Assembly (NCBI GenBank): GCA_018992685.1 | Contig: JACVGT010000011.1 | Location: forward strand, 178,094 to 242,093 | Direction of reading: 5' to 3' | Origin: Theionarchaea archaeon | Lineage (GTDB): Archaea; Methanobacteriota_B; Thermococci; Methanofastidiosales; SZ-28-30 | DNA length: 64,000 nt | Part shown: one piece after another, positions 35,329 to 40,333 of the stretch | Numbering within the stretch: the stretch's first letter is position 1 | Layout of the letters: each line of letters starts with the position of its first letter | Made by a program: the position numbers and the translations under genes | The notes under the pieces: model-generated | Told to the model about the DNA's origin: nothing | What the model saw: the letters and a program-made list of their open reading frames with translations, nothing else | Databases searched by the model: none

Positions 35329-35583
35329 ATGACACGTGCATACGTCCTTATAAGGTCCATGAGCCCTGACACTGACCTGCTGGCAGAAAAGATCAAGACG
35401 ATTGGAGGCATTATTGATGCCTGCGCTGTATATGGAAGTTATGACATCATTTTGGAGCTGGAAGCCAAGAATCTGAAGAGGCTGAGAGACAAGATCATCG
35501 AGATCCGAGAGCTCGAGGACATTGGTGAGACAAAGACGCTGATCCAGATGGAAGAAGGAGAGGAAAATTCTGAGGGTGATTAG
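35329..35583 (+). CDS. Stand-alone Lrp/AsnC ligand-binding (RAM) domain protein 1
   Basis: An 84-residue alpha/beta protein with the RAM (regulation of amino-acid metabolism) pattern: 'RAYVLIRSMSPDTDLLAEKIKTIGGIIDACAVYGSYDIILELEA', lacking the DNA-binding helix-turn-helix of Lrp. The tail is acidic. Such stand-alone domains oligomerise into rings and may sense amino acids or modulate full Lrp proteins. A GAGGGATGTGAT ribosome site precedes it. It is directly followed, without any gap, by a second RAM gene. Confidence 0.88.
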   Translation: MTRAYVLIRSMSPDTDLLAEKIKTIGGIIDACAVYGSYDIILELEAKNLKRLRDKIIEIRELEDIGETKTLIQMEEGEENSEGD

Positions 35584-35826
35584 ATGATTAAAGCATTTGT
35601 GATCTTGAAGACTGACTGCCCTGATATATTTGAATGTGCAGAGAAAGCCACAAAGGTTCCAGGAGTGCTCCGCGCTGTACCCCTGTATGGGGAAGGAGAC
35701 ATCATGATTGAGATGCTGGTCAAGGACTTAAGGCAGTTGAAGGTGAGAAGCAGGTTGTTGCGGGTTAATCCCCTGGTCAAGAACACGCAGACCTTTCTTT
35801 CCATGGATGAGATAAAAGGTGAATAG
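35584..35826 (+). CDS. Stand-alone RAM domain protein 2
   Basis: An 80-residue paralogue of the preceding gene, starting immediately after its stop codon (TAG-ATG). 'KAFVILKTDCPDIFECAEKATKVPGVLRAVPLYGEGDIMIEMLVK' matches the RAM fold, and 'VKNTQTFLSMDEIKGE' is the closing strand. The two proteins are only moderately similar, so they may form a mixed ring. The stop of this gene lies just ahead of the nucleotidyltransferase start, so all three are one operon. Confidence 0.88.
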   Translation: MIKAFVILKTDCPDIFECAEKATKVPGVLRAVPLYGEGDIMIEMLVKDLRQLKVRSRLLRVNPLVKNTQTFLSMDEIKGE

Positions 35827-38122: not shown

Positions 38123-38461
38123 TTCATCACCATTTCTGTTCTACAGGTACCTTCCTGAGATCATAGCCTTTTGGTGCCCTACCATTGCAGCAACAGTTCT
38201 GTCGAACAAGAGGTCATTACAGGGGAGTAGACTCTTGAGCCTTTTCCCCTCTGCACAATACGCATCGGTCTGTGTCGAAGTCAAAAGAAGTGCTGAGTAT
38301 TTATACCTTTCTTTTGACAGTATGACGAATCTTATGACGTTGGTTGGTGCTCTGGCAGGTGCAGTGCTGGCAGAGATCATGCGTGGAGCAAGACAGGGTT
38401 TCACTAGAAGGACTGAAATATCCAACCATATCTTTTTATATATATATGCCAAGAAAACCTA
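38123..38461. other. Divergent intergenic region with a tiny ORF
   Basis: It contains GTATTTATACC (38297-38307) and the strong promoter of the RING-like gene, TCTTTTTATATATATATG (about 38430-38447). A 46-codon plus ORF (38322-38462, starting MTNLMTLVGALAGAVLAEIM) lies about 20 bp after the first box and ends in TAATG overlapping the next start. Its last ten codons are encoded by the second TATA box, so I regard it as doubtful (about 0.25). Confidence 0.4.
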
Positions 38462-40333
38462 ATGAGTCAATGCAGTCTGTGTGGTGGAGAAATCTTGGAT
38501 CGGAGTGATTCCCGCTATTGCGTTCATTGCCAGGCAACCTTCCACAGAAGCTGTGTTATCGATCACTTCTATCGAAATAAGTACTGCCCGGTCTGCAACA
38601 AAAAAATGTCCTTGATATTCATGCGGTTTGGTGAACCTCCTCAATCCACAATGAAGAAGAGGTCTTTGCCAAATGAAATCAGAAAGCCCAAGTGGCCCCA
38701 GCTGGAAAGAAGGACAGAGGTTCCCGTTTTCGAAATTGACATCCCGACAGGTCCCCTGAAGCGTACAGACAAGTACATACCAAAGGCCCGAGGCAAACGG
38801 CAATTCAAGCTCCCAAAGAAACTCCCCATGAAATTCATCGGGATTGTTTTCATCCTAGCCGTCATTGGAGGAGGTGCCTACTTTGGGAGAAGCTATCTCC
38901 CCACAAGCTTTGGAACCCAGGAAGAACAACCCACCGCATCGCCCTGGACTGTGGTATGGACCTATCCTCTGGAAGGCGTTACTGACATGGCTGCTTCTCC
39001 TGAGGGAATCGTCGTGGGCAGCAGACAGGGACTTGTGATATTCGCTGTTGATGGCTCTGTCTTGTGGCAAAGAGAGGGCGAAATTACTGATGTAGATATA
39101 AATGAAAGCATTATTGCAGTCACCAACAGAGGATATGTAGAAATGTACACAATCGAAGGGACAGAACTGGTTCGGTATGGCGAAGGATTCTCAGATTCAG
39201 TCTCTCTCTCCAGTCTCCAGATTGCAGCAGCAGGTTCCTCTCAGGGGGGAATAACTTTTGTTGATACAGATGGGAATGTGCTCCAGAAAATCGAGACAGG
39301 CCCGGTAACCAACGTCTCTTTTTCTGAAAACAGTGAAATGACAGCATACCGACAGGAGGGAACAGTGTATGTTCTGGACATTCTGGGGGACGTCATGTAT
39401 GCCTTTGATGACCAGGGATCTGCACAGGATCGAATCATCCTGCTTTCCCAGGGACGGGTATTTGCGCAGGCGGCTCAGAACGTCTTCCTGTATGATGGAG
39501 AGACTGATTCTGTCCTGTGGAGTGCAGAGGTAGGAACGTGCAGTGCAGGTCTTTCAGTTTCAGAGGATGGAGGAACCTTTGCCGTGTGCGGCCAGAACCC
39601 TGTGTTGTACAACAGTTCAGGGCAGGAAATACACACACTACCCAAGGGTAGCTGTGGAAGCATTGCCTTTGTCAACCAGGATGTCGTGGTATCAGATTCC
39701 AATACTATCTATTTCTTACGGTATGCTCAGCCCACCATAACAACTCCTCCTGAAGAAGAAGGCGAGAAGCAGCCGGAAGAATCAGAAGAGCCAGGAGAAC
39801 AACCTTCCACAGAACTGGGAACGTATCAAGAATGGTTCACCTGGTATCAGTCATTTCTCTCCACAGAAGGGAATTCTGCAACCTACAGTATTGAGGTGAA
39901 AGAGGGAGAAAGCGTCTCCACCATGGAAATCAACTATATGATTGAAGGGAAAGAAGAGAAGACCGTCATTGAATCCTTTACCATAGTCATTAAGACCCAG
40001 GAAGCAGAACTCAAGAGTACATTCAAGAGGTGGATTGGCCCGGATGGAACCTGCCTGAAAGCTGAAATGACCATTGACACCACCAGCACGGCAATAGACT
40101 GCAGCAAGACTACCATTCAGGGAGTTGACCTCAGAGAGATTCTTTCATTCGCAGATAAGGTTTCTTATGTTGGCCAAGAAGAAGTGACAGTGGGCAGGGG
40201 TACGTTCCTGTGTCACAAATTGGAATATGACACAGGGAATGGGATTATTACTCTCTGGATTTCTGATGGAATGCCCCCCATCAAGGTTTCATTGCAGCAG
40301 GGTGAACGACTGGTCACCATGAGCCTTGAATGA
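38462..40333 (+). CDS. Transmembrane RING-like zinc finger with extracellular propeller
   Basis: A 623-residue protein. Residues 4-45 hold eight ordered ligands, C4 C7 / C20 C23 / H28 C31 / C42 C45, a cross-brace C4HC3 layout close to RING-type fingers ('CVHCQATFHRSCVIDHFYRNKYCPVC'). A basic linker leads to one membrane helix (about 123-141). Outside are propeller-like repeats (about 155-430) with 'VLWQREGEITDVDINESIIAVTNRGYV' blades, an acidic Pro/Glu spacer (about 433-460), and a beta-rich C-terminal domain (about 465-623) with paired cysteines. RING fingers of this kind in eukaryotes recruit ubiquitin conjugation enzymes; none is encoded nearby. TATATATATG is centred 26 bp before the ATG. 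Confidence 0.85.
   Translation: MSQCSLCGGEILDRSDSRYCVHCQATFHRSCVIDHFYRNKYCPVCNKKMSLIFMRFGEPPQSTMKKRSLPNEIRKPKWPQLERRTEVPVFEIDIPTGPLKRTDKYIPKARGKRQFKLPKKLPMKFIGIVFILAVIGGGAYFGRSYLPTSFGTQEEQPTASPWTVVWTYPLEGVTDMAASPEGIVVGSRQGLVIFAVDGSVLWQREGEITDVDINESIIAVTNRGYVEMYTIEGTELVRYGEGFSDSVSLSSLQIAAAGSSQGGITFVDTDGNVLQKIETGPVTNVSFSENSEMTAYRQEGTVYVLDILGDVMYAFDDQGSAQDRIILLSQGRVFAQAAQNVFLYDGETDSVLWSAEVGTCSAGLSVSEDGGTFAVCGQNPVLYNSSGQEIHTLPKGSCGSIAFVNQDVVVSDSNTIYFLRYAQPTITTPPEEEGEKQPEESEEPGEQPSTELGTYQEWFTWYQSFLSTEGNSATYSIEVKEGESVSTMEINYMIEGKEEKTVIESFTIVIKTQEAELKSTFKRWIGPDGTCLKAEMTIDTTSTAIDCSKTTIQGVDLREILSFADKVSYVGQEEVTVGRGTFLCHKLEYDTGNGIITLWISDGMPPIKVSLQQGERLVTMSLE

Follow-up and report, generated by a model that had tools for sequence, protein, structure and literature searches.

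Prokaryotic RING fingers and other binuclear treble clefs were reportedly covered by Burroughs et al. in 2011. A well-described archaeal protein with a RING-like finger is the ubiquitin ligase (E3) srfp from Caldiarchaeum, encoded in an operon that also holds the genes for ubiquitin, E1, and E2 (PMC5654768). In the reconstituted Caldiarchaeum system, mutations of I30, W58, and R69 in the RING protein impaired ubiquitylation; according to the same study, every E3 RING has a Lys or Arg at the position of R69 (PMC5654768). A 2015 paper that cites Burroughs et al. states that prokaryotic B-box treble clefs have roles in membrane-protein folding, stability, and proteolysis (PMC4506424). Zinc ribbons of the Zn_Ribbon_1 and DZR families are found in prokaryotic proteins that combine a small cytosolic zinc module with one transmembrane (TM) segment and an external domain.

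The protein analyzed here, encoded in a 64,000-nucleotide stretch of Theionarchaea DNA (referred to below as the window), has the same general layout. In contrast to its finger, those ribbons follow the CxxC...CxxC pattern and have neither the His ligand nor the cross-brace order. The finger is a variant of the prokaryotic RING/PHD-type treble clef, a known class, but its architectures are unusual: fusions of such fingers to OppC and to propellers were not found in the literature within reach of our search.

Gene and domain organization of the window protein

The gene (38462..40333, + strand) is open throughout from its ATG to a TGA codon and encodes a 623-amino-acid membrane protein in which the finger is followed by a linker, a TM segment, a propeller, and a β-domain. 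A TATA-like AT tract, recognized by eye at 38433..38448 (+ strand) and ending 13 bases 5' of the ATG, is the probable promoter of a monocistronic mRNA, which is possibly leaderless. The gene appears to stand alone, since the nearest genes on both sides, coding for a methyltransferase on one side and a small Lsm-like ORF (assigned by eye) on the other, lie on the opposite strand. The orthologous protein, 86% identical over its full length, is encoded in Theionarchaea archaeon SZ_28-30 (L035, 6001-7878), which was the only named match in a four-row alignment scan of the species collection. Both genes are flanked by the same neighbors, coding for an F420 oxidoreductase, a nucleotidyltransferase, a rhodanese, and a methyltransferase. 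A glutaredoxin-like gene is found 3 kb from the window gene, beyond the one for PEP synthase. An Rfam scan of the window produced no match. Also in the window, at 35329-35826, there are two tandem genes for stand-alone Lrp/AsnC ligand-binding (RAM) domains that lack the DNA-binding domain.

The finger with its trailing R-x-G-x-P segment occupies residues 1-60 (38462..38641, + strand) and is described in the next section. In the alignments, it is followed by a basic, proline-rich linker (residues 61-122; 38642..38827, + strand) with the motif LPxxIRKPxW...EVPxF, which is common to the window protein and its OppC paralogue (see below). The only strong hydrophobic segment of the protein, at about residues 121-143 with a mean hydropathy of 2.0, is predicted to form a single TM helix (residues about 123-143; 38828..38890, + strand), and a low-confidence AlphaFold model places a helix at residues 126-138, within this segment. 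Because a Lys/Arg-rich stretch lies just ahead of it, the N terminus of the protein is predicted to be inside and the finger cytosolic.

The outer part of the protein begins with a putative extracytoplasmic seven-bladed β-propeller (residues 161-424; 38942..39733, + strand). This assignment, which we consider probable, comes from a repeat of ∼38 residues, with self-similarity peaks at 35, 38, 39, and 73 that barely stand out from shuffled sequences (about the 95% level), and from sub-threshold matches to PQQ_2/BamB (20.0 bits) and to the COPA/B propeller; a PDB search with the same region retrieved 3hxj at a nonsignificant E value of 0.095. The acidic Pro/Glu-rich hinge that follows (residues 425-455; 39734..39826, + strand) is among the least conserved parts of the protein and differs in length by 3 residues from that in L035. 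The C-terminal β-rich domain (residues 456-623; 39827..40330, + strand) is DUF3108-like, judging from a weak match of 23.2 bits (21.4 in the orthologue) against a cut-off of 26; a PDB search with this domain gave nothing significant. An AlphaFold model of the whole protein, built from two sequences, had a mean pLDDT of 36.3.

The N-terminal finger

The eight ligands of the finger, C4, C7, C20, C23, H28, C31, C42, and C45, come in the C4HC3 order with the spacing C-x2-C-x12-C-x2-C-x4-H-x2-C-x10-C-x2-C and are kept (as CCCCHCCC) in all 11 aligned relatives, which show 31-95% identity. The middle of this pattern, C-x2-C-x4-H-x2-C, is PHD-like, and its tail, H-x2-C-x10-C-x2-C, is RING-H2-like. When compared to Pfam in isolation, the finger passed the cut-off for zf-RING_2 (29.5 bits; cut-off 27.3) and scored under the cut-offs for Prok-RING_1 (26.6 bits; cut-off 29.1; first half only aligned), PHD (PF00628; 15.2 bits; cut-off 24), and DZR (17.2 bits; cut-off 27.3). 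With the 11 relatives scanned singly at an E value of ≤0.01, PHD was matched by 9 of them and zf-RING_2 and Prok-RING_1 by 8 each. In a PDB search with the family profile, the best matches were RING-H2 domains, those of Arkadia (E value of 1.8e-8) and EL5 (1.7e-7); the PHD finger of WSTF was found at 2.5e-6. Given these profile matches and the mixed PHD/RING-H2 spacing, the finger is, by its sequence, a binuclear treble clef of the RING/PHD type, which would bind two zinc ions.

No other part of the protein is under stronger constraint. Between the two theionarchaea, the dN/dS ratio is 0.024 for the finger, 0.046 for the linker, 0.086 for the propeller, and 0.074 for the C-terminal domain, so that the finger and the linker evolve the slowest. 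Passage of the zf-RING_2 cut-off, the invariance of the ligands in 11 relatives, and the strongest constraint all indicate that the finger is no chance pattern. The AlphaFold model of the finger, made from a shallow alignment of three sequences (mean pLDDT of 56.5), contains strands at residues 10-14, 17-20, and 25-28 and a helix at residues 32-38, which fit a RING/PHD-type treble clef. In a Foldseek search, this weak model produced E values of 0.03 or higher, and the best RING matches, with an rmsd of about 8 Å, were not counted as proof of the fold. In a tree of the 11 fingers, the Theionarchaea copies cluster together; this tree had open forks and long-branch warnings and was not relied on. 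A PHROG search gave no useful match. The initial annotation had described eight Zn ligands in C4HC3 order at the cytoplasmic end of a protein that crosses the membrane once and carries a propeller and a β-rich domain outside. The ligands of that description hold in every relative, the membrane topology agrees with the prediction made from the sole hydrophobic segment and the basic stretch before it, the repeat, together with the weak PQQ_2 match, makes the propeller probable, and the weak DUF3108 match belongs to the β-rich domain.

Comparison with the named classes places this finger between them. It shares with the RING-H2 domains of E3 ligases (Arkadia/RNF111 and EL5; zf-RING_2, PF13639) the order of the ligands, the FHxxC and CPxC signatures, and the 10-residue gap between ligands 6 and 7. 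However, its ligands 3 and 4 form a PHD-style C-x2-C instead of the C-x-H of RING-H2, it has neither the Trp four residues after the sixth ligand (C6+4) nor the Arg/Lys linchpin, and no E2 was detected in the genome. With the PHD fingers (PF00628), such as those of WSTF and Pygopus, it has in common the C4HC3 order and the C-x2-C-x4-H-x2-C core, but it differs in its short C6-C7 spacing, the membrane anchor, and having no known chromatin context. PHD fingers carry a Trp two residues ahead of ligand 7, the position occupied here by Lys40. Although 8 of the 11 relatives match Prok-RING_1 (PF14446), the window finger itself falls below the profile cut-off and is only half aligned. Members of the RING-CH class of MARCH-type membrane E3s match the RINGv profile and have the core C-x1-C-x7-H-x2-C; this class was rejected for the window finger in view of its C-x2-C-x4-H-x2-C core and the absence of RINGv among the listed Pfam matches. 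The double zinc ribbon was likewise rejected, as DZR is under its cut-off and ligand 5 is an invariant His.

The residues equivalent to those mutated in srfp were placed by ligand positions, with W58 at ligand 6 + 4 and R69 after ligand 8. The hydrophobic I30, located between ligands 1 and 2, is kept as Leu6 in the window finger and is Ile, Leu, or Val in all relatives. In contrast, W58 corresponds to His35, with His or Tyr in the other rows from Theionarchaea and from the sister family f3, and the segment is deleted in family f4; the R69 linchpin corresponds to Asn46, and among the relatives just the two OppC paralogues have a Lys there. Unlike that of srfp, the window gene does not share an operon with genes for ubiquitin, E1, and E2.

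Other proteins headed by the finger

The finger search detected only two fingers in the host genome. The second one, 46% identical to the finger of the window protein, begins an OppC/DppC-type permease (Opp4C E value of 1.8e-57). The oppC gene comes directly after oppB, and its start overlaps the oppB stop codon. The oppB-oppC pair (L039 9147-11353 in G000:C9; also L036 715-2918) has no adjoining oppA, oppD, or oppF and is followed by kynureninase-like and clamp-loader large-subunit-like genes. The same arrangement recurs in SZ_28-30 (two metagenome-assembled genomes [MAGs]), so the fusion is no assembly accident. At least three further OppC-type permeases, all of them shorter, are encoded in the host genome; N termini were inspected for two of them, and both are without the finger. 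With these permeases present and only two fingers in all, the finger is evidently an addition to one OppC copy. Several weak finger matches in the host (L003-L006) and helicase-like matches from G014 and G003 (L020 and L021) were judged by sequence not to be relatives.

In the sister family f3, 4 of the 5 genomes encode a protein in which the finger and a TM segment precede NEW3-like Ig domains and a thioredoxin-like domain; in f4, half of the 10 genomes encode a finger-TM protein with a short tail. The finger thus heads a propeller with a β-domain, an OppC permease, NEW3 plus a thioredoxin-like domain, or a bare TM anchor; the linker motif is seen in the Theionarchaea copies. The finger is always located at the extreme N terminus, and no gene neighborhood is common to all of these proteins. 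No finger was found in the 4 genomes of family f2, in any of the 94 genomes of the phylum beyond its own order, or among the plasmids and viral contigs searched. The zf-RING_2 domain was likewise missing from all 14 control genomes, 4 of them archaeal, in keeping with the earlier opinion that this organization is unusual in archaea.

Two f3 genomes (L040 5959-9732 and L041 5247-8955) contain, in a row, genes for a thioredoxin-reductase-like protein, a thioredoxin-like lipoprotein, and the finger-TM-NEW3-thioredoxin protein, which looks like an extracytoplasmic redox operon. In two f4 genomes (L042 7653-8243 and L043 7927-8526), the short finger-TM gene is located about 42 bases 5' of argS and is possibly co-transcribed with it. 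Other f4 proteins (L078, L080, L083, and L086) consist of a secreted propeller, a TM segment, and, in the cytosol at the C terminus, two or three zinc ribbons; this is the architecture of the window protein with a different zinc module and in the reversed order.

Possible roles of the finger and linker

On balance, we favor, with moderate confidence, the view that the first ∼93 residues, the finger and the basic linker, represent a portable docking cassette in the cytosol, by which one shared partner is tethered to varied membrane proteins. Such a cassette would head proteins with different outer or in-membrane jobs, sit at the inner membrane face, and either bind one common cytosolic partner or self-assemble, thereby tethering or clustering the surface protein. 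Binding outside would fall to the propeller and the DUF3108-like domain in the case of the window protein; ubiquitin-type transfer would not be needed. This role is favored because the same cassette heads unrelated membrane proteins, its two parts are the slowest to evolve, the finger is homologous to the RING/PHD protein-interaction domains and is an extra on one OppC copy among several, neither E2 nor ubiquitin was found, and the zinc-ribbon proteins with TM segments in the host genome are of an analogous design. The strong constraint on the finger and linker and the linker motif common to the propeller and OppC proteins also suggest a specific binding surface.

The main rival to docking is a passive role, in which the finger is a generic cytosolic zinc knob that only stabilizes the N terminus, fixes the topology, or aids insertion, like the zinc ribbons that are common in archaeal membrane proteins. 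If the role were purely one of structure or targeting, the pattern would look the same as for docking, and the invariable position of the finger at the extreme N terminus, the several zinc-ribbon-plus-TM proteins of the host (e.g., L094, L101, L109, and L097), and the reversed propeller-TM-zinc ribbon proteins of the sister genomes all fit it. We nevertheless regard it as rather unlikely, given how strongly the finger and linker are constrained, how the linker motif is common to proteins as different as the propeller protein and OppC, and that the other OppC copies manage without a finger. Alternatively, oxidation of the Cys ligands could free the zinc and alter the state of the membrane protein. 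The location of the finger gene after the thioredoxin-reductase-like and thioredoxin-like lipoprotein genes in two f3 genomes and the C-terminal thioredoxin-like CxxC domain of the f3 protein are consistent with such a redox or zinc switch. However, this CxxC domain is on the outer side and the finger on the cytosolic one, and the window gene and the OppC paralogue have no adjoining redox genes; we give this explanation little credence.

The initial annotation had likened the protein to the membrane E3 ligases of eukaryotes. In that case, ligand binding by the propeller would lead to the tagging of cytosolic partners, for which the finger would recruit either a charged E2 or an E1 of the ThiF/UbaA type together with a SAMP-like modifier. 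The RING-H2 E3 domains as the best PDB matches and the retention of Leu6 (between C1 and C2) and Pro43 are in line with this proposal, as is the presence in the host genome of one ThiF/MoeB-type E1 (ThiF; G000:C5, about 21 kb), three ThiS/MoaD-type proteins above the cut-off, and one JAMM protease. All of these, however, are usual parts of SAMP-type systems or of sulfur transfer, and the ThiF and ThiS/MoaD proteins are equally expected for the latter. To our knowledge, SAMP-type systems work without E2 or E3. Ubiquitin was not found in the host genome, and E2 was detected in none of 21 genomes (the host and 20 relatives) in a search that covered the UQ_con family, had no positive control, and dealt with a MAG 91% complete. 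Nor do the JAMM genes track the finger: the search for Prok-JAB found none in f3, where four genomes have the finger, whereas f2 genomes, which lack the finger, do have Prok-JAB. The genome search that had been suggested for ubiquitin-like, E1, and E2-like genes came out divided, with the E1-like, ThiS/MoaD-type, and JAMM proteins present and E2 and ubiquitin not found. The initial annotation had also named, as evidence against itself, the lack of any ubiquitin-like system combined with the finger in other proteins; about half of this is observed, as other types of proteins do carry the finger but ubiquitin-like parts are present. With no UQ_con E2 or ubiquitin found, the Trp and linchpin residues missing (and the Trp-bearing segment absent from f4), and the same finger heading a permease and redox-type proteins, the E3-ligase reading of the window protein is not supported, and we consider it very improbable. 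An E2-free, ancestor-like membrane E3, with the finger recruiting a ThiF/UbaA-type E1 and a SAMP-like modifier and the propeller ligand directing the tagging, has hardly any likelihood at all.

The cassette exemplifies a RING/PHD-class finger that archaea with no detected E2 or ubiquitin have used repeatedly as an exchangeable module at the membrane surface. This fits the idea that, before their recruitment to ubiquitin transfer, fingers of this kind served generally to dock peptides and proteins. With one OppC carrying the finger at its N terminus and others free of it, the host genome offers a clean system for studying what the finger contributes.

In another theionarchaeal sequence (L085 1-1008, in G001:C41), an RHS-repeat-like core sequence adjoins a gene for a lipoprotein propeller.
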